Shown: piece after piece, positions 8,203 to 59,026 of the stretch
Numbering within the stretch: the first letter of the stretch is position 1
Layout of the letters: each line of letters starts with the position of its first letter
IMG/VR virus record: IMGVR_UViG_3300044824_000068
Location: 1-59,131 of that record
Length of the DNA: 59,131 nucleotides
Direction: 5' to 3' (one strand)
DNA from: a virus
Notes under the pieces: generated by a model
The model's input: only the letters and a program-made list of their open reading frames with translations
Told to the model about the DNA's origin: nothing
Database searches by the model: none
Program-made: the position numbers and the translations under genes

Positions 8203-8340
8203 ATGAGAGTATTTTATCTTCTAATAATCCTAGGTCTAGTATGCTTCATGTCGTACGAGTTCGCGTTCTTCGCGAAACACTATGCTTTCCTAGAGAGTCA
8301 ACTAGATTACATTATGAGTCATTGCCGTGTGGTCCCATAG
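8203..8340 (+). CDS. Possible small membrane protein overlapping a tRNA gene
   Basis: 45 codons from ATG 8203 to TAG 8338-8340; the stop lies inside the following tRNA. The first 17 residues are hydrophobic (MRVFYLLIILGLVCF), consistent with a single membrane helix or signal anchor, followed by FAKHYAFLESQLDYIM. There is no strong Shine-Dalgarno, only an AT-rich leader. It could be a small holin or antiholin, or a chance frame between two RNA genes. Its stop is TAG, right beside genes for tRNAs predicted to read TAG. Confidence 0.3.
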   Translation: MRVFYLLIILGLVCFMSYEFAFFAKHYAFLESQLDYIMSHCRVVP

Positions 8341-8406
8341 CTCAGCTGGTAGAGCGTCCAACTCTAAATCGGAATGTCACGGGTTCGAACCCCGTTGGGA
8401 CCTCCA
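8331..8406 (+). tRNA. tRNA with anticodon CUA (amber suppressor type)
   Basis: 76 bases with CCA encoded. Acceptor stem GGTCCCA/TGGGACC is perfect; the D arm is GCTC-AGCTGGTA-GAGC with the conserved GG; the T arm is ACGGG-TTCGAAC-CCCGT. The anticodon arm is TCCAA-CTCTAAA-TCGGA: U33, anticodon CTA at 34-36, A37, with one A-C mismatch at 30-40. CUA pairs with the amber codon UAG. The discriminator base is U73. The amino acid it carries cannot be read from the sequence. Confidence 0.88.
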
Positions 8407-8411
8407 ATTTT

Positions 8412-8486
8412 GCCCTCGTAGTTCAGTGGTAGAACAGCGAACTCTAAATCCGTGTGTCGAGGGTTCGATTCCCTCCGAGGGCGCCA
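8412..8486 (+). tRNA. Second tRNA with anticodon CUA (amber suppressor type)
   Basis: 75 bases with CCA encoded, 5 bases after the previous tRNA. Acceptor stem GCCCTCG/CGAGGGC; D arm GTTC-AGTGGTA-GAAC; T arm GAGGG-TTCGATT-CCCTC. The anticodon arm GCGAA-CTCTAAA-TCCGT again gives U33, CTA, A37 and the same A-C mismatch at 30-40. The discriminator is G73. It shares the 11-base core AACTCTAAATC with its neighbour but has otherwise different stems, so the two are distinct tRNAs that both read amber, not a recent duplicate. Confidence 0.88.
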
Positions 8487-11632: not shown

Positions 11633-12170
11633 TTTAGATCCAGGTGCAAAACATGTCTACAGTCTTCCTCACTTTAAGTTAGACAATGTTTATCCTATCT
11701 TCGAGAAGTACTTCAATGGGGCCGCGAAGAAGGCAATGCAGACAAAGACTGATAGCTTTTACTATAGCTATTATGTAGACCATGGAACGACTAATAAGTT
11801 GATGACTCTGTTATCTCACCTAAACTTGAGAAGTGCCAAGGAAGCTGTTGACAAGAATTTATTCAGCCCTTCTATAGCAATGGATAAGATCCACTTCTTC
11901 GCCATTAGGTGTGAAAGAACAGACATAGTTAAAGCAGTTGAGCACATGATATTGAGTATAAATCACCTTGCAGATAAGGGGTTTATTAAGGCCTCGATGG
12001 TTGAATTGGGCGTAATTAAATTTGAACACGTCCCTGGTAAAGCAGATGAGGTTGCAGTTTTGTCTTATCTTAGCCTGGATAAGAACGGCGAGAACTATGT
12101 TGGGACGTTTATGCCCAATCTCATCGTCGCAGAAGGCTGTGTGCCCACAAGGCTTGAGGAATTGAAATGA
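11583..12170 (+). CDS. Hypothetical protein upstream of the chaperonin
   Basis: 195 residues of unknown family. It overlaps the methyltransferase-like gene by 50 bases and the chaperonin gene by 4, so it belongs to one operon with both. The product looks like a mixed alpha/beta protein with a central helical part (RTDIVKAVEHMILSINHL) and a C-terminal beta region (VAVLSYLSLDKNG, then VGTFMPNLIV). It is too large and has no mobile-loop motif for a GroES, so there is no sign of a co-chaperonin here. Confidence 0.65.
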   Translation: MQMERLSQVLQDVRLNSLDPGAKHVYSLPHFKLDNVYPIFEKYFNGAAKKAMQTKTDSFYYSYYVDHGTTNKLMTLLSHLNLRSAKEAVDKNLFSPSIAMDKIHFFAIRCERTDIVKAVEHMILSINHLADKGFIKASMVELGVIKFEHVPGKADEVAVLSYLSLDKNGENYVGTFMPNLIVAEGCVPTRLEELK

Positions 12171-13888
12171 TTTACGAGAAGAGCAAAGCAAAGAGTATAA
12201 CGGCTGACAGACAGAAGATCCGCAAGATCGTTAGTGATACGATCACGGAGATGGCTGATATCGTCGGCGCAACCCTCGGACCAGGTGGTAGACCTGTCAT
12301 CCTGGAACGGGATGGTTTATCACCTCTTGTTACGAAAGACGGAGTTACAGTTGCAAAAACGCTTGGAATGGCAAACGCAGAAGCCAATATTATTATCGAA
12401 TCTGCAAAGGAGATATGCCTCAGGACTGCTAAGCAAGCGGGAGACGGTACAACTACGGCTATTGTACTTGCTAGCGCAATTACTAAAAACGGTCTCGCAT
12501 TCCTAGATAGTAATCCCAAATACAACCCGCAACGAATGGTTAGCGAGTTGAATGATCTTTATTCAAACGTTATTGTGCCGTTCTTGAAGCAGCACGCAAA
12601 ACCAGTGAGGGAGAGACATGAGCTTATCAATGTTGCTACTATTAGTGCTAATGGAGATGCAACTATCGCTGCAGCAGCCGTTGACGCAGTTATTACTGCT
12701 GGCGAAGACGGTCAGGTCCTCATTGAGGAAGCTGATGACATCGGCATAAGGGTTGAGACAATTGATGGCTGCATTGTTACGAGCGGCTTGAAAGACATAG
12801 GATCGATCGGACTTGCGTTCATCAACGACCGTTCTGCCCAACAGGCAAAGATGGATAATGGCGTCGTGTTCCTATATGACGGAACGATGAACGATCTCAA
12901 AGTTCCTGCTGCTATCCAGACGGCTGTAGAGATGACTCCTATATACGGTAAACCAATCATCGTATTCGCACACGGGTTTTCCGACGTGGTGCTGGATAAG
13001 TTTGCTAAGACAACTAAAGGTGGATACACGGTAGTTCCCGTTAAGACTCCGCTTGGAGGCGTAGCCAACTCACGTTCTATGTTCCTGTACGATATGGCTG
13101 CATACTCTGGAGCAGAAGTCGTGGATCCAGGTAACCTAGATCATTACTTGGAGGCCGACAATCTAGATGAAGCCTTTGGAGCATTCACCGCAGCTAAAGT
13201 GAACATGTTCGAGACGTTTGTGACCAGCGAAGTTGATCACGAGAAGATCGAGGCTCGTATTGCAGAACTTAAGTCTATCATGGTAGTTGCTCCCAGCGAC
13301 CGTGAGAAGATGTTCGCCAAGGCTGCAATCAGCAAACTAACCGGCGGCGTTTCTACTATCTGGGTAGGTGGTGGTTCTGAACTTGAAGCCCGTGAGAAGA
13401 AGGCTCGTGTTGAGGATGCTGTTGAAGCTGTTCGCTCTGCTATCGCTGAGGGCGTGATCCCAGGCGGTTGCGGAGTTCATCTAGTTCTGTCTGACATCAT
13501 AGCCAAGCATCCTGACCATGTTCAGTCGTGGGACATCATGATTAAGGCTCTTAGAGCTCCATTCGAGATGCTATTATCCAACTGCGGTGAGGATTTTGTT
13601 GACATCTGGAACGCCTTGGAACCGCATATCGTTAATAGGCAGAGTCCGCCCAAGTTTATCTTTGACGCGAATGCACATCGTATAGTAGACCCAGAGAAGG
13701 CAGGCATCATCGAACCGGCAAAGGTTTGCAGGGTTAGCGTCGGTAATGCCTTATCGGTAGCATCGCTTCTCATCACCCTAGGCGGCATCGTGGTTGTACC
13801 ACGCGACTTTGGTCTTGAGAATCAACTCGCCCTCAGCAAGCAAGCCTTTCAGGACATGATGGCTGGTGGTGGAGTTGGACAGGAATAA
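12167..13888 (+). CDS. groL: GroEL-type (group I) chaperonin
   Basis: 573 residues, slightly longer than bacterial GroEL (about 548). Conserved ATP-site segments: VGATLGPGGRPVILE (residues 33-47), AGDGTTTAIVLA (about 91-102), and AREKKARVEDAVEAVRSAI followed by EGVIPGG, which holds the Asp needed for ATP hydrolysis in GroEL. The apical region is diverged. The tail ends MMAGGGVGQE instead of GGM repeats. Phage GroEL homologs are known from several large phages, and some work without GroES. The likely clients are phage proteins, perhaps the capsid protein or tail parts. No groES-like gene is in the window. Confidence 0.92.
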   Translation: MIYEKSKAKSITADRQKIRKIVSDTITEMADIVGATLGPGGRPVILERDGLSPLVTKDGVTVAKTLGMANAEANIIIESAKEICLRTAKQAGDGTTTAIVLASAITKNGLAFLDSNPKYNPQRMVSELNDLYSNVIVPFLKQHAKPVRERHELINVATISANGDATIAAAAVDAVITAGEDGQVLIEEADDIGIRVETIDGCIVTSGLKDIGSIGLAFINDRSAQQAKMDNGVVFLYDGTMNDLKVPAAIQTAVEMTPIYGKPIIVFAHGFSDVVLDKFAKTTKGGYTVVPVKTPLGGVANSRSMFLYDMAAYSGAEVVDPGNLDHYLEADNLDEAFGAFTAAKVNMFETFVTSEVDHEKIEARIAELKSIMVVAPSDREKMFAKAAISKLTGGVSTIWVGGGSELEAREKKARVEDAVEAVRSAIAEGVIPGGCGVHLVLSDIIAKHPDHVQSWDIMIKALRAPFEMLLSNCGEDFVDIWNALEPHIVNRQSPPKFIFDANAHRIVDPEKAGIIEPAKVCRVSVGNALSVASLLITLGGIVVVPRDFGLENQLALSKQAFQDMMAGGGVGQE

Positions 13889-17023: not shown

Positions 17024-17524
17024 ATGAAAACATGTAGTAGTGAAAATTGTTCCCAAGTAAACCCACAACCATATTCTGCTTTTTATAAAACCGATGCTAA
17101 CATAGATGGCCATACAGGTCGCTGTATGGTTTGTATTAAATTACAACGTAATGGCAAGTATAAGAGAAATAAGAGTAAGTTTAAAAAAAGATCTGCCGAT
17201 TGGAAAAGTAAAAACGTTGATAAGGTGCAAGAAGGCAACTTACGTGATAAACATGGTGTATCTTATCAGTGGTATCAAGAGACATTAAATACTCAAAAAG
17301 AATGTTGTGCTATTTGTAAAAAGCATAAATCTCTTAACGTTAAAGATGCTAGAAATAATAAGGTAAGAAATCTTGCGGTAGATCACAACCATACAACTAA
17401 TCAGATTCGTGGATTACTTTGTTATGGTTGCAATTTAGCTCTTGGCATGTTAAAGGACAACATTGAGTCAGCACAGAATTTGGTAGAATATCTACGGTTT
17501 TATGAAGAAAAAGATAAAATATAA
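17024..17524 (+). CDS. Endonuclease VII-like HNH nuclease (homing type)
   Basis: 166 residues. The C-terminal half has the recombination endonuclease VII pattern: HGVSYQWYQETL, CCAICKKH, LAVDHNHTTNQIRGLLC, CNLALGML. The N-terminus has a CxxC-type cluster (CSSENCSQ, later CMVC) and a very basic linker. T4 endonuclease VII resolves DNA junctions, but free-standing copies in phages often act as homing nucleases. Two related genes are at 27227 and 58652. The gene is distinctly AT-rich compared with its neighbours, and has its own promoter, both fitting a mobile origin. Confidence 0.85.
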   Translation: MKTCSSENCSQVNPQPYSAFYKTDANIDGHTGRCMVCIKLQRNGKYKRNKSKFKKRSADWKSKNVDKVQEGNLRDKHGVSYQWYQETLNTQKECCAICKKHKSLNVKDARNNKVRNLAVDHNHTTNQIRGLLCYGCNLALGMLKDNIESAQNLVEYLRFYEEKDKI

Positions 17525-18411: not shown

Positions 18412-19266
18412 ATGAGCTTACGTGATTCCTACTTCAACGGTCCTAATGGGATCCAGCAGCAGATGGATGCCGCTTTTGCCAACGGTATGGCCTATGTAGG
18501 CGTCGGTGGCAACGATACATCCACCCTATCCTTAGGGGATAGAAACGGTTCTAACTTAGGTGCAGGTAGTGGTCAACCAGGCTTATACTTCACTTATGCA
18601 ACTCCGTCTGCAAACTATGTAATGTGGTTTTTAGTTAACGGTGAGATTGCTCCAAGTGTAGCCGGTTCGTTGATTCAAGTTCCAATCTTAAGTGGTGACA
18701 ACGCAACAGCTGTTGCAGCCAAGATTGCTAACGCAATGAACGCAGCTGCAGGTGCACCTTTCTCTGCCATCTCTGCTGCTTCAGTAGTATCCATGACGGA
18801 TAGTGCCTCTGGCGTAGCAATCCTTCCTGTCTCTGCCGGAACATTGGGTGGAACTGCGTCGGTTGCCCAGGTAACTGCTGGTATCGCTCCGACAGGTGTT
18901 TACTCAACGTTGCAAGCTGGTCTTCAGCAAGCTGCTGCCGGCGGCAAGCAAGACTTTAGAGTGGTAACTATGGGAACTGGTAACATGAATACCGCCATCT
19001 TAAGATCCAGCAATGGTAACAACCTTGCGCTCAGATCTTTCTTTGCCGGGATTCATCAAGCTCTAGCTAATCAGGAGATTTATAATTATCAAGTTCGCTT
19101 GCAGTTGGACATCAGCACAAACTCTTCAACAAACGTAATTTTTAACTTTGGTTTTGCTCGTCGTTTCGCCCACGCTCCAGTAAACCTTGACTCATTAACT
19201 TGTCCTGCTAGTACCTGCGCATCCCCTTGGGATGGTTACGGTGGAGCCGGATCAGAAGCATTCTAA
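18412..19266 (+). CDS. Probable virion protein, single-gene transcription unit
   Basis: 284 residues, rich in Ala, Gly, Ser and Asn, with the small-residue, beta-strand composition of phage capsid or decoration proteins (GNDTSTLSLGDRNGSNLG, later SVAQVTAGIAPTG). The C-terminus has two Cys flanking a short loop (LTCPASTCASPW) and ends in GYGGAGSEAF. It has its own promoter, a strong ribosome binding site and a perfect terminator, which suggests high independent expression. It is far from the main head cluster. I cannot name the family. Confidence 0.6.
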   Translation: MSLRDSYFNGPNGIQQQMDAAFANGMAYVGVGGNDTSTLSLGDRNGSNLGAGSGQPGLYFTYATPSANYVMWFLVNGEIAPSVAGSLIQVPILSGDNATAVAAKIANAMNAAAGAPFSAISAASVVSMTDSASGVAILPVSAGTLGGTASVAQVTAGIAPTGVYSTLQAGLQQAAAGGKQDFRVVTMGTGNMNTAILRSSNGNNLALRSFFAGIHQALANQEIYNYQVRLQLDISTNSSTNVIFNFGFARRFAHAPVNLDSLTCPASTCASPWDGYGGAGSEAF

Positions 19267-19287: not shown

Positions 19288-19319
19288 GGCCATGGTTTAC
19301 CCCATGGCCTTTTTTATTT
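19288..19319 (+). terminator. Rho-independent terminator
   Basis: Perfect 8-base stem GGCCATGG (19288-19295) with CCATGGCC (19302-19309), loop TTTACC, then TTTTTTATTT. It ends the 18412-19266 transcript just before the polymerase promoter. Confidence 0.93.
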
Positions 19320-19320
19320 G

Positions 19321-19326
19321 TATAAT
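19321..19326 (+). promoter_or_regulatory. -10 promoter (TATAAT) of the DNA polymerase gene
   Basis: TATAAT begins two bases after the terminator T-run and is followed by six bases (CTGTGC) and the ATG at 19333. This sets the true start of the polymerase gene and implies a leaderless mRNA. Confidence 0.6.
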
Positions 19327-19332
19327 CTGTGC

Positions 19333-22300
19333 ATGGCAAGATTCAAGGAACCAGCACAACTTCACAACCACAGCAAATATTCACTTCTAGATGCAGTACC
19401 TTCGCCCGAAGAGTGGGTTGCTTGGTGTCTGGAATCCGGTACTCCGGCTTTAGCGATCACGGATCATGGCACGGCCATTTCCATGTACGATGCTCTGAAG
19501 GCTAAAGATTTCATCAAGGCCTATAATACTAATAAGGTCGACGAACTCGTTCAAGAGTACACAGAAGCCAAAGGTCCTTCCAAACTCACATCTGAAGAGA
19601 CCAAGAAGTGGCAAAAAGAGAATAAGGTTGTCATTGATGCATTCGTCAATGCCAATTACACTCCACATCCTGTAGACGCAGTTACACTCATTCCAGCAGT
19701 TGAACTCTATGTCAAACTGAACGCTGAAGATAAAAGTCATTATCACATCACTGCATGGGCAGCAAGCACAGAGGGATATCACAACCTCATGAAGCTGTCA
19801 TCTATAGCCTACAACGATACCGTGTCGTTCTTTGGTTCTGTCAAGGCCCGCGTCACGTTTGATCAGATCAAGCAATATAAGAAAGGCATTAAATTTGGCA
19901 CAGGATGTATTGCAGGTCCGATTGGTAAAGCCTTCTGGGATAACGATAGAGCGCTTGCGGAAGAGCGATTCCTTATGTATCGCGAAATTTTTGGTGAAGA
20001 ACTATACATCGAGTTCCATTGTAACGATGTCACTCATAACTTTAATAAACAAACTGGAGGTTTTGACCCTATCCCAGGCGACGAATGCTCTTGTGATGGT
20101 AATAAACAAAAACACTATAACCTCTTTCTCAGGGACATGGTTGATAAATACGGGGGCAAGCCTATTCCCGTAACCGATGCTCATTTTATTGCACCGGAGG
20201 ACAAGGTAATCCAGGATTGTCTTCTTAAGAATGGTAATTCAAATGGCTGGTACTTTTATGAGTCGTATCATCAATTAAGAGCGGAGCAAATGTATGATAA
20301 ACTCAGAGCGCATCTTGGAGAGTGGCTTAGCGAGGGAAGATTTGAATCATGGATCGAGAACACTTTTGAGGTGGCGAATAGCGCAAAAAATATTAGTGTC
20401 TCTTTCGATTACCACCTGCCAAGAGTCGCTATCCCGGACCACATCCAGGAGAAAACTCCTGATTATGATAGACAAACTTATTTTTACATGATGGAGCTCA
20501 TTAAGGAGCACGGCCGTTGGAATAACGATCCAACCTATATCGCCCGCTTCAAGCAAGAAGTGGACGTCATCATGAAGAACGAGAAATTAAACTTCATACC
20601 TTACTTCCTCATCTATGAAGATATCGGTAGGTTTGCTAGGTCTCAAGGCATCCTTCAGAACATTGCACGTGGTTCTGCAGGTGGCTCTCTACTGAGCTAT
20701 TATCTCAAGATTATCCATGTTGACCCTATCAAGGCCAACCTACCGTTCGAACGGTTCCTGTCCCATGCTCGTATCAGAGCTGGATCGTTCCCCGACATCG
20801 ATGCCGACATCGGTGACCGCGCGCGGTCACTCATCATGGATTATCTCCGTAAGAAGTATGGCGCTGGGTTTGCCCAGATCTCTACGTTCCAGAAGATGAA
20901 AACGAAGAACGCCATCAAGGATGCGATGTTTGCGGTTTATGGCAGAAATCGTAACGACGTAGAGGTTAAGTTCATCTGCGATTCTATCCCAGACTCTCCA
21001 CAGGGCACGGACGAGTATGACTTCTTGTATGGTGGAACTGACCAGGAAGGCAACTACAATGCTGGACAGGTAGAGATCAATAAGAATTTGGCCAACTTCT
21101 TCGCTACGTATCCTGACGTCGAGAAGATGGTGAAGAAGCTCATCGGTACGATCCGCGGCTGGTCTCGTCACGCTTCTGCTTTCGTCATATCCACGTTGGA
21201 TCTCTCTGCAGAGCGCGTTCCCACGATGGTGATGAAGGACAAGGAACTAGGTGATATTGTCTGTACGCAGTACGATGCTAGCATGGTTGAGAAATGTAAC
21301 CTGGTCAAGGCTGATATCTTAGGTATCAAGACTCTCACGGCGGTATCTGACTGTGTGGCTCTCGTACAAGACAAGATAGATTATCTGCAGGAAGAGCAGG
21401 GTGTACCGCTCATCTATAGGTTGCCTGAATCCGAAGCAGTGTACGCTGACTTCTACAACAAAGATACAGATTCGTCATTCCAGTTTAACACCGAGTTGAT
21501 TAAGGGCTATATCCAGGAGTTCTGCCCTACTAAGCGTGCAGATCTTATGGCCATGACGGCGCTATGTCGTCCTGGCGCATTAGATGCCCCTCTTTACGAT
21601 ACTACTGCCGCTCAGTATTACATGGACGTGCGCAATGGGAAGCGCGACATAGAATATCTGCACCAAGACTTACAGCCCATAATCGAGTTTAGCAACGGCG
21701 TCTTTGTCTACCAAGAAGAAGTCATGCGATTCCTGGTAGAGGTTGCTGGCTACTCTTGGGAGCAATCAGACCTTATCCGTGGCGCTATTGCCAAGAAGAA
21801 GGGTGACGTCATCATGAACACCTTCGACAGGATCCGCGCTTCTTGCAGGTCCAGAGGATGGAATGATGATGCCATAGAAACAGTGTGTCAGCAGATTCAA
21901 GCCTTCTCAAGGTACTCATTTAACAAGTCGCACTCGTATGCGTATGCAGAATTGGGATATATCACAATGTATCTCAAGCATCACCACCCGTTCGAGTGGT
22001 GGGCAAGCGTTCTCAACGTCTATATTGACGATGAGACGAAGGTTCGCCAGTACATGTCTAAACTGGGTCCCATCGTAAGACCGCCGTCGTTAAAGTACCC
22101 AACGAACAAGTTTGAGGTAAGAGAGATCGACGGGGAGAGATGCATTGTTACCCCGCTCTCTGCTATCAAAGGTGTTGGTCCCGCTGTCGTTAGGGAACTC
22201 TGCGCAAAGGGACCCTTCCCAACACTAGAAGACTTCGTAAAGAGAATCGACCACGCAAAGGTCAACTCAGGAGGCATCTCCTATCTCCTTAAGGGAAGAG

Positions 22301-22887
22301 CTGCCGACGACATGATGGACATGTCTATCCCAGATTACGGTCAGCGTAGAGAAGCGTTCATAGAGACGTATAAGAAGTTAAGAGGTAAGGAGATCAAGCT
22401 TCAACCAGAAGTGTTCCAATTTGACCCATTATCTATCTTCCTTATGGAGAAAGAATATAACCAAGCGTTCAATAAGAATCTTCTCTCTGATAAAGCTATC
22501 GTTAATATCATCAAGGGCAGATGGCCAGCTCTTATAGAGACAGGTCGACCCGGTATCCCTCTGCTTATGGGAAACACACCGGTCTTATCGACAATCAAGG
22601 TTGCTGAAGGTTTAGTTAAGCAGGAATGCGATAAAGAGGTGGGAATGATTCTTCTATATGAGTCGTCTTCGTTCTCTAAGGGCGTCTCAAAGAAGACCGG
22701 CAAACCTTGGTCTAAGGTCGCTGTCTTCTTGTCTGACGGCTTTACCACTCTAGAATGCACATACTGGGATAAAAAGTCAGCACTCGGTTGGGCTAAGAAC
22801 AGTATCGTATATGTGCGTGGTAAGCTGAAACCAGGCTGGAAAACTCCAGTGAGCTTACAAATAAGTGAGATCGAAAGGATCGAGTAA
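19333..22887 (+). CDS. dnaE: DNA polymerase III alpha subunit (C-family, DnaE type)
   Basis: 1184 residues, typical for DnaE. The N-terminal PHP domain has HNHSKYSLLD (11-20) and ITDHG (about 42-46). The polymerase core has ARGSAGGSLL and the catalytic FPDIDADIGD (about 484-493), GWSRHASAFVIS, and FNKSHSYAYAELGYITMYL (about 862). Tandem helix-hairpin-helix (IKGVGPAVVREL) and an OB-fold region (VGMILLYESS) follow. It synthesises DNA at the phage fork. It has no inserted 3'-5' exonuclease, so proofreading would come from the PHP domain or a separate protein (candidate at 42831). The start at 19333 is chosen because the frame upstream overlaps the -10 box. Phages with their own C-family replicase are a minority. 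Confidence 0.95.
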   Translation: MARFKEPAQLHNHSKYSLLDAVPSPEEWVAWCLESGTPALAITDHGTAISMYDALKAKDFIKAYNTNKVDELVQEYTEAKGPSKLTSEETKKWQKENKVVIDAFVNANYTPHPVDAVTLIPAVELYVKLNAEDKSHYHITAWAASTEGYHNLMKLSSIAYNDTVSFFGSVKARVTFDQIKQYKKGIKFGTGCIAGPIGKAFWDNDRALAEERFLMYREIFGEELYIEFHCNDVTHNFNKQTGGFDPIPGDECSCDGNKQKHYNLFLRDMVDKYGGKPIPVTDAHFIAPEDKVIQDCLLKNGNSNGWYFYESYHQLRAEQMYDKLRAHLGEWLSEGRFESWIENTFEVANSAKNISVSFDYHLPRVAIPDHIQEKTPDYDRQTYFYMMELIKEHGRWNNDPTYIARFKQEVDVIMKNEKLNFIPYFLIYEDIGRFARSQGILQNIARGSAGGSLLSYYLKIIHVDPIKANLPFERFLSHARIRAGSFPDIDADIGDRARSLIMDYLRKKYGAGFAQISTFQKMKTKNAIKDAMFAVYGRNRNDVEVKFICDSIPDSPQGTDEYDFLYGGTDQEGNYNAGQVEINKNLANFFATYPDVEKMVKKLIGTIRGWSRHASAFVISTLDLSAERVPTMVMKDKELGDIVCTQYDASMVEKCNLVKADILGIKTLTAVSDCVALVQDKIDYLQEEQGVPLIYRLPESEAVYADFYNKDTDSSFQFNTELIKGYIQEFCPTKRADLMAMTALCRPGALDAPLYDTTAAQYYMDVRNGKRDIEYLHQDLQPIIEFSNGVFVYQEEVMRFLVEVAGYSWEQSDLIRGAIAKKKGDVIMNTFDRIRASCRSRGWNDDAIETVCQQIQAFSRYSFNKSHSYAYAELGYITMYLKHHHPFEWWASVLNVYIDDETKVRQYMSKLGPIVRPPSLKYPTNKFEVREIDGERCIVTPLSAIKGVGPAVVRELCAKGPFPTLEDFVKRIDHAKVNSGGISYLLKGRAADDMMDMSIPDYGQRREAFIETYKKLRGKEIKLQPEVFQFDPLSIFLMEKEYNQAFNKNLLSDKAIVNIIKGRWPALIETGRPGIPLLMGNTPVLSTIKVAEGLVKQECDKEVGMILLYESSSFSKGVSKKTGKPWSKVAVFLSDGFTTLECTYWDKKSALGWAKNSIVYVRGKLKPGWKTPVSLQISEIERIE

Positions 22888-26913: not shown

Positions 26914-27230
26914 AATGGATTGATCGTAGGGCAAATGAACTAGTAGAGAATTTTCAAGAAGTAGATACAGTCTACATGAGTCTTGATATCTATGCTCAGT
27001 TTGTGAAAACCATATCTGGCAATCTTAGGGGATGTTCTCCAGATCAGGGTGGTTTTCAAACTTTACAAATCGTTTTGGCTGCAGTAACTCTAGTTGTTAA
27101 GCCAGTTCCAATGTTAGACAATTTTTGTTTTGTTGGCGCAGTGAGATCCCAAACATATGATTCACTCGTAAGGGCTAAAGTGGATCAAGCATTTGAAGAT
27201 ATAGTTTTAAAGGATTGTGAGCGCGAATGA
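26868..27230 (+). CDS. Hypothetical protein
   Basis: About 120 residues, starting at the ATG at 26868 inside the end of the phosphoesterase gene. It starts MPEHSGWCPDHAICIEW with two closely spaced Cys and a His, perhaps a metal site, followed by a mixed helix/strand region. No known family. The following endonuclease gene overlaps by 4 bases. Confidence 0.5.
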   Translation: MPEHSGWCPDHAICIEWIDRRANELVENFQEVDTVYMSLDIYAQFVKTISGNLRGCSPDQGGFQTLQIVLAAVTLVVKPVPMLDNFCFVGAVRSQTYDSLVRAKVDQAFEDIVLKDCERE

Positions 27231-27739
27231 AAAAGAGATGTAAGGTTTGTGGAAAAAACAGACTAATTAAGTTCTTTCATAGTCATTCTAGTTGTGCTAA
27301 AGGTGTTAGAGCAGAGTGTAAGACTTGTCATAATAAGGTATCTAAGGTCAGACACAAAAAATATATAAAAGAGAATCCAGATAAACGTCGCTCTACTGTA
27401 CTTAAAAATAAGTATGGGGTTACTTTTGAACAATACAGGGCAATGCTGGGTGCTCAGGGGAACGCTTGCAAGATATGCGGATCTTTTAGTCCTGGGGCTT
27501 CTAAGGATCATTTTAGTATAGATCACGATCATAAGACAGGTAAGATTAGGGGCATTCTTTGTCATGGCTGTAATGCCGGACTTGGAATGTTTAAAGAAGA
27601 CACTCAATCACTTAAACAAGCAATTTGTTATTTGGATAGTCATGTGGCTGTCAGCACGTCATTAGATAAATGTGATCATGAATGGCAAAGTGCAACTGGA
27701 GTTGGTCGTTGGTGTAATAAATGTGGTAAGGGAGTTTAG
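27227..27739 (+). CDS. Endonuclease VII-like HNH nuclease (homing type)
   Basis: 170 residues. N-terminal zinc cluster (CKVCGKN, CKTCHNK); endonuclease VII core: YGVTFEQYRAML, CKICGSF, SIDHDHKTGKIRGILCHGC, NAGLGMF; and a C-terminal extra CxxC (WCNKCGK). It is AT-rich and lies exactly between two other genes, ending one base before sbcD, so it may have inserted into the recombination operon. It is related to the genes at 17024 and 58652 but clearly diverged from both. Confidence 0.87.
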   Translation: MKKRCKVCGKNRLIKFFHSHSSCAKGVRAECKTCHNKVSKVRHKKYIKENPDKRRSTVLKNKYGVTFEQYRAMLGAQGNACKICGSFSPGASKDHFSIDHDHKTGKIRGILCHGCNAGLGMFKEDTQSLKQAICYLDSHVAVSTSLDKCDHEWQSATGVGRWCNKCGKGV

Positions 27740-55230: not shown

Positions 55231-55772
55231 TGTACGGACATATAGTCTTAGCAGACACTAAGTCTGGATTTATCCCCTCTGGTATCAAGTGGATAACCAA
55301 CTCTCAGTTCAGTCACAGCTTTGTAACTACGCCAGATGTTCTTGGCATACCGATGTGTATCGAAGCTGCTGAAGGCGGAGTAGACTTTACCAGGTTTGAT
55401 ACGGGCTACGAGAACAACCAGAACGAAGGGTATGAGGTCTGGAATGTCAAGATAGATCAGAGCATCAAGGATGTAGCTATCGTTTCTATCCTCGCAGATC
55501 TAGAGACAGGTTATGGCTTTCTTCAATTCCCGTGGTTCGTGTGGCGCAAGCTTAACTCACTCGTCGGTCGTGATATCAAGGCACAGAATAACTGGGATAC
55601 AGATGGAATGATATGCTCGCAGCTCTGCGTCGCATACTTGAAGGCATGCGGACTGCAGAGCGTGCTAGCTGGATATGGTGATGGTGCTATTGCTCCGCAA
55701 GACCTGCAGAGCATATTCATGGCTCATCCTGAGCTATTCGAGAAAGTAACGGACGTAAGACTTACTCAATAA
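55230..55772 (+). CDS. YiiX/NlpC-P60-like papain-fold protein
   Basis: 180 residues from ATG 55230, which overlaps the previous stop. The order of elements fits the permuted papain-like YiiX/YaeF group: MYGHIVLADT, FSHSFVTT (likely catalytic His, H29), a MCIEAAEGG strand, and NWDTDGMICSQLCVAYLKAC (likely catalytic Cys about 129). Such enzymes cleave amide bonds in peptidoglycan peptides or lipids. As a virion or lysis protein it could act on the cell envelope; there is no signal peptide. It overlaps the minus-strand gene by 11 bases. Confidence 0.68.
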   Translation: MYGHIVLADTKSGFIPSGIKWITNSQFSHSFVTTPDVLGIPMCIEAAEGGVDFTRFDTGYENNQNEGYEVWNVKIDQSIKDVAIVSILADLETGYGFLQFPWFVWRKLNSLVGRDIKAQNNWDTDGMICSQLCVAYLKACGLQSVLAGYGDGAIAPQDLQSIFMAHPELFEKVTDVRLTQ

Positions 55773-56139
55773 TGAGATCGTCTAAGATCATCAGTTCTTG
55801 AGTAGTTAGTAACACCTTGTCGCCTAGATCACTGATCTTGATGCTGCCGGCGTTAATATCAAGTGCAAGAAGCGCGTTAAGCTCGTCGATGAATATCTTC
55901 ATGTTATCATCGCTCAGCTTCACAGTGCCGTTGGCATCTGCGTCCAAAGAACCGTCTTCCTTCTTGTCACCAAGGCGCCTCAAGGCTTCACCCCTCACTT
56001 CTTCGTACTTAGCAAACTCATCGTTTCCGACCTTGAGAATGCCTCTAAGTTTGAAGGCAGTCTTAAGTGGAATCTCTTGAGCAGCTAGCTTCCTGAGGAT
56101 TGCTTGGTAGTTTGGGTCAACAAGTTTGCCTAGTTTCAT
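55762..56139 (-). CDS. Hypothetical protein on the opposite strand
   Basis: 125 residues, the only minus-strand gene in this 30-kb stretch. Helical, charged sequence (LAAQEIPLKTAFKLRGILKV) with ADANGTVKLSD, which resembles an EF-hand-like loop but is not a full one. It has AGGAG before the ATG. An isolated antisense gene in a virion operon may be expressed at a different time. Confidence 0.6.
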   Translation of the reverse strand: MKLGKLVDPNYQAILRKLAAQEIPLKTAFKLRGILKVGNDEFAKYEEVRGEALRRLGDKKEDGSLDADANGTVKLSDDNMKIFIDELNALLALDINAGSIKISDLGDKVLLTTQELMILDDLIIE

Positions 56140-56180: not shown

Positions 56181-56447
56181 ATGAACTTACAAAAAAATGC
56201 TACATATTGCTTCAACCTACTAAAGGGATTCGGCAAGGAGTCTTTTGCTGTTGCTATCCTTGTTGCCGGCATAATCTTTCGTTGTAAGGGGTTGATAGAT
56301 GGTGCCCAGTTTGTAGACCTGATAAAGAACATAGGAATGACATATCTTGCCAGTCACACTATTAATTCCACCTGGGGCGGTAACATCACCAGCGTGGTAC
56401 CTGTGCCTCCAAATGCTACAGTTGATGACCCCGATAAGGGTCTGTAA
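56181..56447 (+). CDS. Small membrane protein, possible holin
   Basis: 88 residues from ATG 56181 with TTGGAGT before it. One clear membrane helix (SFAVAILVAGIIF) follows an amphipathic N-terminus; a second weak segment (IKNIGMTYLASHTI) comes later, and the tail is polar. Size and topology fit a holin or related lysis protein; not proven. Confidence 0.5.
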   Translation: MNLQKNATYCFNLLKGFGKESFAVAILVAGIIFRCKGLIDGAQFVDLIKNIGMTYLASHTINSTWGGNITSVVPVPPNATVDDPDKGL

Positions 56448-56613
56448 GGCCTATCTTGGGGCACAAGAATCCATAACAAACGCATCTCGGGGCATTCTAG
56501 GACGTTTAGAAATGCAATAACGGGATGTATATTGATTCCATTTTTGCACTTGCGTATAACCTAGGTTGACCCCGTGATATCATAGTAGTAGGCTAGTGGC
56601 CCACGGGAGACTC
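56448..56613. other. 166-base non-coding gap between two membrane-protein genes
   Basis: No gene-length frame. It contains GTAGTAGGCTAGTGGCCCAC and a ribosome binding region (CGGGAGA) just before 56614. A box TGATATCATAG near 56575 could be part of a promoter. No strong hairpin terminator. Confidence 0.4.
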
Positions 56614-57024
56614 ATGTCTGATAGTAAGAAGATAGACTATATACAAGAGAGAGTTGACTCGGTAGCGAGCACCATAGCCGGCATAGACAAAGATATGGCT
56701 ATCCAGAAGGCCAACTTTGAAGTCCACACCAGGCAAGATGAGCAGATGTACTGCGAGCTCAAGAGGATGAACGATATCCTGCAGCAGAACACAGATTCCC
56801 TAAAAGAACACATGGATAATAACGTCCTACTTAAGGACATGATCAACAATATGAACAAGCGTCTCGAGCCAATCGAGATCGAGTTCATCCAGAAGGCAGC
56901 AGTGAGAAGCTGGGTAATGTCTAAGGCTAAATTCATAGGTAAGGTCGGCGGCGCTATAGTGGCTGTTATAGGCGTATGGATGTATGTCGCACCTTTGCTA
57001 GGACATCTACTCTCACTTAGGTAA
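56614..57024 (+). CDS. Coiled-coil membrane protein, XhlA/holin-like
   Basis: 136 residues from ATG 56614, preceded by GGGAGA. A long coiled coil (KIDYIQERVDSVASTIAGID, then ELKRMNDILQQNTDSLKEHM) ends in one membrane helix (VGGAIVAVIGVWMYVAPLL). This layout is that of XhlA-type haemolysin-like and holin-associated proteins. Together with the gene at 56181 it may form a lysis pair. Confidence 0.6.
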   Translation: MSDSKKIDYIQERVDSVASTIAGIDKDMAIQKANFEVHTRQDEQMYCELKRMNDILQQNTDSLKEHMDNNVLLKDMINNMNKRLEPIEIEFIQKAAVRSWVMSKAKFIGKVGGAIVAVIGVWMYVAPLLGHLLSLR

Positions 57025-57097: not shown

Positions 57098-58141
57098 ATG
57101 GCCCAACAACCGAACAACTCTGGCGGAAATGTATCCGCTCCATATAGAGCACCCGCTGCAAAAGTAATTGCAGGGGCTCTAGCAAACAACAAGGTGGCTC
57201 AGTCGCTAATCAATGCACTGGGCGTACGCTCAATAAACGCTATCGTAGCAACCAGCACATCCCCAACTGCAAACTTCGCCAACTTACAAGTTGGCGACTA
57301 TGTTGTTCATATGGCCGCTGGCTCAACTTCGCCACTGGGCAATGCTGCTGGATACGCAATCTTGGGTGCGTCGGCCGTGACGGGTTCTACTGGATCTGGT
57401 AGCACGCTAACTGGTAACCTAGGTATTTATCCTAACAACGCTACTTCCATCACCAACTTTCCTCCAAGCACCTATACCGGTGTGGAGAATGCTGGCAATG
57501 CTGCGGCTCATGCAGCACAAACTGATGCTCAAACTGCATTCACTTCAATGCAGACTATGGGATTAGCTGGAACAACAATCGCATCTGCCCTTGACGGTCA
57601 AACTCTAACCCCTGGCGCGTATAAGTTCTCCTCGGGTGCAGCAACATTGGACGGTGGCGGTGCACTCACCTTCAACGGTTCAGGCATGTATATCATCTAT
57701 ACTGCGTCGACGCTCACTACTGGCTCTAGCGGTACTCCGGTGATGACGCTTGCTAGTGGTGCTACAGCTGCTAACATCTTCTGGATAATCGGTAGCTCTG
57801 CTACTATCAACTCTGGTTTCTCTGGAATCTTCCAAGGTAACGTGATCGCTCAGGCAAGTGTCACCGTCACTGACGGCGGCACTGTTGACGGCGGTTTGAT
57901 TGCATTGACAGGCGGAGTGACGCTCAGCAATACGACAGCAGTTAATACTGAGTCGAGTGCTGGCGGACAGGTAAGCTATAGCACTATTGCTACAGCTGGC
58001 AATCTCGGCATGGCTGCAGTTGTTGGTGACCTATATCTTGACCTTGCGGTCGTCAATCTCGACAGCAATAACCCACTCATTCCACCGCCACCAGCCCAGC
58101 TTACGGCTAGACACACCGGCGACGGCGGCTTGGATTTTTAA
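57098..58141 (+). CDS. Probable virion protein carrying an inserted ice-binding-like (DUF3494) domain
   Basis: 347 residues. Residues 1-76 and 290-347 align with the whole of the next gene's product (135 residues): PNNSGGNVSAP and RAPAAKVIAGALANN at the start, LQVGDY, then AAVVGDLYL, VVNLD and TGDGGLDF at the end. Between them, residues about 77-288 form a separate domain with the hallmarks of DUF3494 ice-binding proteins: GNAAGYAILG, TGNLGIYPNN, FPPSTYTG, TLTPGAYKF, IFWIIGSSATINSG, FQGNVIAQASVTV, GGLIALTGGVTL. These are ice-binding or adhesin-type beta-helices found in cold-adapted bacteria. There is no signal peptide, so it would be displayed on the virion, perhaps to adhere to a surface. 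The ice-binding function itself is not shown. Confidence 0.8.
   Translation: MAQQPNNSGGNVSAPYRAPAAKVIAGALANNKVAQSLINALGVRSINAIVATSTSPTANFANLQVGDYVVHMAAGSTSPLGNAAGYAILGASAVTGSTGSGSTLTGNLGIYPNNATSITNFPPSTYTGVENAGNAAAHAAQTDAQTAFTSMQTMGLAGTTIASALDGQTLTPGAYKFSSGAATLDGGGALTFNGSGMYIIYTASTLTTGSSGTPVMTLASGATAANIFWIIGSSATINSGFSGIFQGNVIAQASVTVTDGGTVDGGLIALTGGVTLSNTTAVNTESSAGGQVSYSTIATAGNLGMAAVVGDLYLDLAVVNLDSNNPLIPPPPAQLTARHTGDGGLDF
57326..57962 (+). other. Inserted DUF3494-type domain within the preceding gene
   Basis: Codons for residues about 77-288. Insertion lies between LQVGDY-VVHMAAGS and QVSYSTIATAGN, where the paralog is continuous through LLHVPVSPGS. Codon use does not look obviously different from its surroundings. 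Confidence 0.75.
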
Positions 58142-58169
58142 TTTTAACTAAACTAGGAGAATAAATAAT

Positions 58170-58577
58170 ATGTCAGTACAACCAAACAACTCAGGCGGAA
58201 ACGTCTCGGCCCCAAACAGAGCCCCAGCAGCAAAAGTTATTGCTGGTGCACTTGCTAATAACCGCGTAGCTCAAGCGCTCATCGCAGCGTTGGGATCTTA
58301 TTCGATCTCATACTCCGTTGTAGCGACCAACGTATCTACAACTGTTAACTTCAGTGGTTTGCAAGTCGGCGACTACCTACTTCACGTTCCCGTGTCACCA
58401 GGCAGTGCACAGTTTGCTGCAGTAATTGCTGCAGGAACCGCACCGTTTGCTGCAGTCGTTGGCGACCTATACTTGGCGTTGCGCGTAGTTAACTTGGATT
58501 ACAATAACCCAATCATCCCTCCAGCTCCTGCAGGCAATACTGCAAGACAGACTGGTGACGGTGGCTTAGACTTCTAA
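58170..58577 (+). CDS. Probable virion protein, uninterrupted paralog of the preceding gene
   Basis: 135 residues. Same N-terminal 42 residues pattern (QPNNSGGNVSAPNRAPAAK) and same C-terminal end (TARQTGDGGLDF) as the larger protein but without the central domain. AGGAG precedes the ATG. A tandem pair in which only one copy carries the insertion suggests duplication followed by domain gain (or loss). High Ala content and strong terminator fit an abundant virion protein. Confidence 0.7.
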   Translation: MSVQPNNSGGNVSAPNRAPAAKVIAGALANNRVAQALIAALGSYSISYSVVATNVSTTVNFSGLQVGDYLLHVPVSPGSAQFAAVIAAGTAPFAAVVGDLYLALRVVNLDYNNPIIPPAPAGNTARQTGDGGLDF

Positions 58578-58605
58578 TAAGAGTTTAAGTTAAGAAAAGT
58601 AATTA

Positions 58606-58640
58606 AGGGCTAAACTGTGAGGTTTAGCCCTTTTTATTTT
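58606..58640 (+). terminator. Rho-independent terminator
   Basis: Perfect 10-base stem AGGGCTAAAC (58606-58615) with GTTTAGCCCT (58622-58631), loop TGTGAG, then TTTTTATTTT. Confidence 0.93.
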
Positions 58641-58651: not shown

Positions 58652-59026
58652 ATGAAACTTTGTTATCATTGTAATGAAACCAAGCCCTTTTCTGAGTTTT
58701 ATAAAGATGCCAAAAGATCTGATGGTTTTAATAACAAGTGTAAAAAATGTCGTAAGCTGTACCAGCGTAAGCAGTATAAAATAACGACTCGTTTTAACAA
58801 GTACAAAATAACAAGAGCCCAATATCAAGCTCTTTTAGTTGAGCAAGACAATTCATGTGCTATATGTAAGGATCAACTTATTGTTGGTCACATAGACCAC
58901 TGTCATGAGACTAACAAGATCCGCGGCATTCTATGCATGAAATGCAACATGGCATTAGGTTTGTTTAAAGATAGCGTAGATGTTATTCAGAGGGCAGCTG
59001 ATTACCTGGTCCATTCACGTAAGTAA
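58652..59026 (+). CDS. Endonuclease VII-like HNH nuclease (homing type)
   Basis: 124 residues, the shortest of the three related genes. N-terminal zinc cluster (CYHCNETK, CKKCRKL); core YKITRAQYQALL, CAICKDQ, GHIDHCHETNKIRGILCMKC, NMALGLF. It is AT-rich, carries its own promoter and overlaps the end of a minus-strand gene by 44 bases, all typical of a recently arrived homing gene. Confidence 0.87.
   Translation: MKLCYHCNETKPFSEFYKDAKRSDGFNNKCKKCRKLYQRKQYKITTRFNKYKITRAQYQALLVEQDNSCAICKDQLIVGHIDHCHETNKIRGILCMKCNMALGLFKDSVDVIQRAADYLVHSRK

Follow-up and report, generated by a model that had tools for sequence, protein, structure and literature searches.

Why should a small phage gene stand beside a second copy of itself that is interrupted by a domain of ice-binding type? 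The question is raised by positions 57,098 to 58,577 of the window, the whole 59,131-base stretch of viral DNA analysed here; this interval spans two genes, both present as open reading frames with a good ribosome-binding site. DUF3494 has been studied as an ice-binding fold made by cells. An earlier note on this DNA, made from the letters alone, had described the 347-aa product as its 135-aa neighbour with a block of about 212 residues added at one defined point, and alignment of the two proteins with two outside homologues bore this out: the flanks are colinear and the block, which interrupts one loop, occurs only in the 347-aa protein. Lack of conservation in the loop sequence itself leaves an uncertainty of a few residues in the breakpoint.

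The inserted block is a genuine PF11999/DUF3494 domain, and we regard both the domain and its insertion as certain. It matched the Ice_binding profile (PF11999) with E=3.4e-32 and 112.2 bits, the curated cut-off being 28.7 bits, over profile positions 1-206 of 208, and it was the sole PF11999 match in the 59-kb record. Sequence comparison also matched it to solved DUF3494 proteins (6eio, E=1.3e-22; 7bwx, E 1.1e-18), and all 31 fold matches with E below 0.001 in a Foldseek search of the PDB were DUF3494 ice-binding proteins, confirming the identity proposed in the earlier note. A structure prediction, suggested there as a check, returned a beta-solenoid with a bracing helix: AlphaFold modelled residues about 80-285 with pLDDT ~97, as a strand ladder plus a helix at residues 135-156. 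The Pfam E-value, the solved-structure matches and the fold search together exclude a chance match. The carrier flanks of the 347-aa protein, in turn, were poorly modelled (pLDDT about 43-75) and gave no family match in Pfam or PHROGs, the latter holding no family for the window carrier or for the DUF3494 domain; the 135-aa protein had no tblastn match in INPHARED. Since the flanks model poorly and match no family, a virion location for the 135-aa family is something that we infer rather than observe.

The surroundings of the two genes recur in other contigs. L009 and L010, of 176 kb each, carry the opposite-strand 125-aa gene, a holin-like gene, a gene for a coiled-coil-like protein and then one uninterrupted small gene, and L267 to L270 have the corresponding order, with a small gene of 127 aa. 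A profile scan of the L009 and L010 contigs gave no PF11999 match. The holin-like protein of the window had no family match, nor any significant sequence match to L009 or L010. A tandem duplication, then insertion into one copy, is the simplest history of the locus, the order of both events being our reconstruction. The insert bears no mark of recent arrival, because its GC and GC3 are similar to those of the flanks.

Table. Features of the locus and of its neighbourhood, with positions in the window.
Feature	Position	Strand	Evidence or remark
125-aa conserved neighbour, opposite strand	55762..56139	-	57-65% identity in L009/L010
Small holin-like membrane protein, 88 aa from ATG at 56181	56181..56447	+	ORF; position common to L009/L010
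142-aa coiled-coil-like protein with C-terminal hydrophobic stretch, conserved upstream neighbour	56596..57024	+	60-62% identity in L009/L010
347-aa protein, carrier interrupted by DUF3494 (PF11999) domain	57098..58141	+	ORF with Shine-Dalgarno AAAGGAAG; Pfam E=3.4e-32
N-terminal carrier part, residues 1-75	57098..57322	+	66% identity to L009 small protein; alignment
Inserted block, residues about 76-288	57323..57961	+	Alignment, Pfam, AlphaFold, Foldseek to PDB
PF11999 match inside inserted block	57359-57937	+	Pfam
Most of the presumed b-face Thr ladder: T205-x-T207, T236-x-N238, T256-x-T258, T275-x-S277	57704..57931	+	
C-terminal carrier part, residues 289-347	57962..58138	+	57% identity to L009 small protein; alignment
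135-aa uninterrupted paralogue	58170..58577	+	ORF with AGGAG site; homologues in L009, L010, L267-L270 in matching gene order
Intrinsic-terminator-like hairpin, end of two-gene unit	58605..58632	+	12-pair stem, then TTTATTTTAT; consensus match only

Terminase, portal, head protease and major head genes are present in the window, and no end repeat was found in its 59,131 bases. It is probably a fragment of a larger genome, given that its nearest relatives at the locus include contigs of ~175 kb. That the interrupted gene is a contig artefact was ruled out by the terminase, portal and major head genes of the window and by the recurrence of the construction on many contigs. An HNH/endonuclease VII-like ORF with a PF02945 match lies at 58652-59026, and by eye two further ORFs (17024-17524 and 27227-27739) resemble such genes. 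Two adjacent tRNA genes with a CTA anticodon (8331-8406 and 8412-8486), called tRNA-Pyl by ARAGORN, are possibly amber suppressors; despite them, TAG is the stop of several window ORFs, including terminase. Also by eye, and from the translation only, a 573-aa ORF (12167-13888) is like GroEL-type chaperonins, and a 1189-aa ORF (19318-22887) resembles the bacterial DNA polymerase III alpha subunit.

A first scan found seven relatives, and an alignment scan of IMG/VR brought 71 loci to light, distributed over about 59 contigs; about 50 of these contigs belong to the main phage clade described below. The domain is carried by 70 distinct ORFs. Once it was masked, these ORFs separated into several carrier clusters with no relation to one another. 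One is a tail-sheath family of 17 members, the three of them that were tested matching phrog_279; another is a large linked cluster in which a baseplate wedge (phrog_6) is found. A 12-member family is represented in L006 by a gene that immediately follows the presumed major capsid gene, a second sheath family (phrog_10581) is made up of giant proteins, and several cases stand alone, the 347-aa protein of the window among them. Up to five copies were found per contig (four and three in others), in different genes. The DUF3494 carriers of L003 and L005 also contain a chitobiase C-terminal / Fn3-associated domain (PF13290, PF13287). In the window itself, a 284-aa protein (18412-19266) has a weak tail-sheath match (phrog_165) at residues 76-159, a part that by eye looks like the domain surrounding DUF3494 in L003 and L005.

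Searches of other collections returned few viral relatives. The 347-aa protein and two other phage DUF3494 domains had no tblastn match in INPHARED; a plasmid search yielded only Streptomyces and Curtobacterium proteins, under 60% identity; and the DUF3494 proteins in BFVD came only from a giant virus (Hyperionvirus). We found no paper combining DUF3494 and phage, so that the earlier remark that no phage virion protein with this domain had been described stands for INPHARED, BFVD and the literature searched.

The tail sheath offered a comparison of homologues with and without the insert. A scan with the C-terminal part of the sheath gave 80 loci and 74 complete ORFs, 69 of them devoid of the domain and mostly around 720 aa, the other five bearing it at about 926 aa. 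In 5/5 the insertion lay in the same loop, between TLS... and HDTIPxL, and one sheath model matched both the phi812 sheath (5e-16) and DUF3494 structures (4e-5). L212, L235 and Myxococcus phage Mx1 contain other inserts at the same sheath loop or region. That this loop accepts other inserts suggests that the DUF3494 insert would be exposed on the virion. The unnamed inserts of the loop were recorded at L271:4001-6862, L212 and L235, with Mx1 among the phages concerned. A domain lodged in structural proteins and missing from most of their homologues, as expected of a decoration domain, is what we found in the sheath (5/74) and in the small-protein family.

Throughout the insert-bearing sheath family (17/17), the order of the domain is permuted, the part from the helix to the C-terminus preceding the N-terminal part. 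Domains in L005, L051, L025/L030 and L089, and the second copy in L066, are permuted too, and all remaining domains, the window's included, have the normal order. In solved DUF3494 structures the coils follow the order b1-b6-b5-b4-b3-b2 (PMC7966756), so that b6 and b1 are spatial neighbours and joining them via the short linker observed in these domains is expected to leave an uninterrupted solenoid. The published coil order is thus consistent with a permutation that is real and foldable, and supports it as a reading of these sequences. No report of a circularly permuted DUF3494 was found in the literature. Because the permuted state needs about six changes on the tree, the permutation would have arisen more than once, or else copies would have exchanged sequence.

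To place the domain we built a quick tree from 77 viral and 85 cellular copies of it; the cellular rows are nearest relatives only, because the search patterns were built from phage sequences. A total of 65 viral domains, of both orders, grouped in a single clade that contained no cellular row (SH-aLRT 97), and the window domain lay near those of L060, L064 and L068, which are of the 12-member capsid-neighbour carrier type. The viral domains outside the 65-member clade were scattered among cellular ones, and a single origin of all viral domains was not rejected (p-AU 0.29). L014 and L015 encode DUF3494 proteins of 322-325 aa that fall outside it, in genomes that also have clade members, possibly through a separate capture.

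Most members of the phage clade were about 50-72% identical to the phage query, and the best cellular match reached 47%. This value and the phage-only clade make another phage the most likely source of the window domain. The earlier note had derived the domain from a cold-adapted host; a recent transfer of this kind finds no support, with the phage-only clade, the 47% of the best cellular match and a GC3 of the insert like that of the flanks all against it, and the note was probably wrong about a direct host source.

The presumed ice-binding face, or b-face, of the domain is strongly conserved in the phage clade. Its first row is formed by T205 (64/65), T236 (65/65), T256 (59/65) and T275 (64/65), and its second by N238 (62/65), T258 (56/65), S277 (58/65) and T95 (62/65). 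This Thr-x-(Asn/Thr/Ser) ladder, nearly invariant in sequence, would face outward, judging by strand alternation rather than coordinates, and its Thr positions are partly a family-wide feature that includes cellular members of unknown function. In the capless proteins EfcIBP, AnpIBP and nIBP, two rows of Thr/Ser on the b side are regarded as the site of ice binding (PMC7783341). The ice-binding sites of DUF3494 proteins have no consensus motif (PMC7966756), and the regularity of the phage ladder is therefore notable, not diagnostic.

The best explanation of these observations, and in our judgement a probable one, is that the domain is a mobile virion-decoration domain of tailed phages. A phage-specific DUF3494 solenoid would move between phage genomes and settle in loops of virion-type proteins, in some cases with its canonical order and in others circularly permuted. 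In the window phage, a small conserved gene would have been duplicated and one copy would have received the domain, so that the plain copy could keep the original role. On display, the flat b-face would bind weakly but repeatedly, with its regular rows of Thr-x-(Asn/Thr/Ser), to an ordered surface, most likely ice or else an ordered polysaccharide at the surface of cells or of a biofilm, and virions would thereby be held where hosts are. A virion-surface role is made more likely by the carriers of the closest domain relatives, namely tail sheaths, baseplate wedges and capsid-neighbour proteins. To this extent the earlier reading of the 347-aa protein as a virion-surface adhesin went in the right direction; virion display of this particular protein, and adhesion as its function, are what we infer from those relatives.

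As to what such a face would bind, a decoration for glycans or cell surfaces, comparable to phage Ig-like domains and with ice binding incidental to the fold, is a serious candidate whose chances we put not far below even. The habit of insertion is shared with phage Ig-like domains (PMC10385173), the sheath loop also hosts other inserts in L212, L235 and phage Mx1, and DUF3494 proteins often occur with adhesion domains (PMC9957290). However, the alignment shows no conspicuous glycan-binding site of aromatic or acidic residues, and the residues that abound on the conserved face (Thr, Ser, Asn and Ala) are typical of ice-binding faces. Binding to ice, by which virions might attach to crystals, stay with ice-associated hosts or survive freeze-thaw, would agree with the fold and with two rows of Thr/Ser on the presumed b-face, which resemble those of active capless ice-binding proteins (PMC7783341), as well as with the T-x-(N/T/S) pattern of the clade; we hold it tentatively, as a possibility clearly below even. 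The fuller proposal, in which a permutable ice-binding solenoid, in many copies on the contractile sheath, baseplate and capsid, attaches virions to ice itself, seems rather unlikely.

Two further readings dispense with virion adhesion. The domain might be neutral, filling or extending a loop that tolerates inserts, with no ligand and maintained by recombination, as could be argued from the several unrelated inserts of the sheath-family loop and from the many sheath homologues without the domain; yet the b-face ladder is nearly fixed while overall identity drops to about 50-65%, and copies have multiplied within genomes, and we consider this reading improbable. Alternatively, an auxiliary gene could shield the infected host from freezing, as reported for three viral PF11999 genes in a study of Central Arctic viromes, where they are called host cryoprotection genes and S-SKS1 is named as the main viral homologue (PMC11515562). 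Our profile scan of S-SKS1 gave no PF11999 match. By a crude hydropathy test, a hydrophobic N-terminus is missing in 61/64 phage carriers, the window's included, and present in 58/87 cellular proteins, so that most phage carriers are unlike secreted cell proteins. Moreover, the domain is embedded in sheath and baseplate proteins and is not free-standing in the window, whereas an auxiliary gene of this kind would encode a free-standing or secreted protein acting on the host. For these N-termini and carrier types we disfavour the cryoprotection reading and consider it highly improbable here; most PF11999-bearing proteins that we found look like virion components, not host-cryoprotection genes.

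Our results suggest that the domain serves virus particles as a mobile sticky patch. Recurring as an insert in sheaths, baseplate wedges and other proteins of virion type, it would constitute a new class of surface module for virions, and viral 'cryoprotection genes' would be recast as particle components. Display would be strongly multivalent, because each tail contains many sheath subunits, and the permuted sheath domain would be a natural circular permutant of the DUF3494 fold. Whether some virions stick to ice has become a testable question, and adhesion to ice, if true, would bear on virus persistence and travel in frozen habitats.

Several known systems invite comparison. The Central Arctic viral genes and the DUF3494 proteins of Hyperionvirus belong to the same Pfam family as the phage domain, but Hyperionvirus is a giant virus, and the available text on the Arctic genes gives no link to virion proteins (PMC11515562). 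The annotated tail sheath of Mx1 (OR576727), the only record in the phage collection with this sheath family, shows 43.7% identity over the aligned pieces; a long insert occupies the corresponding region here too, but it is not DUF3494. Phage Ig-like domains, as in Hoc and capsid insertions (PMC10385173), are likewise accessory, being either built into structural proteins or attached to them in many phages, and are proposed to act in weak adhesion; their fold differs from the ~210-residue solenoid described here, which has a face of ice-binding type and occurs also in permuted form. With the capless DUF3494 group (EfcIBP, 6eio; AnpIBP, 7bwx/7bwy; nIBP of Nostoc) the phage domain shares the beta-solenoid, the bracing helix and, at sequence level, the Thr/Ser rows of the presumed b-face, EfcIBP (6eio) and AnpIBP (7bwx) being its closest solved relatives by sequence. 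In contrast to these free-standing, secreted or surface proteins of cells, the phage domain lies inside phage proteins that mostly lack a signal-like N-terminus, forms a clade of its own and is circularly permuted in sheaths.
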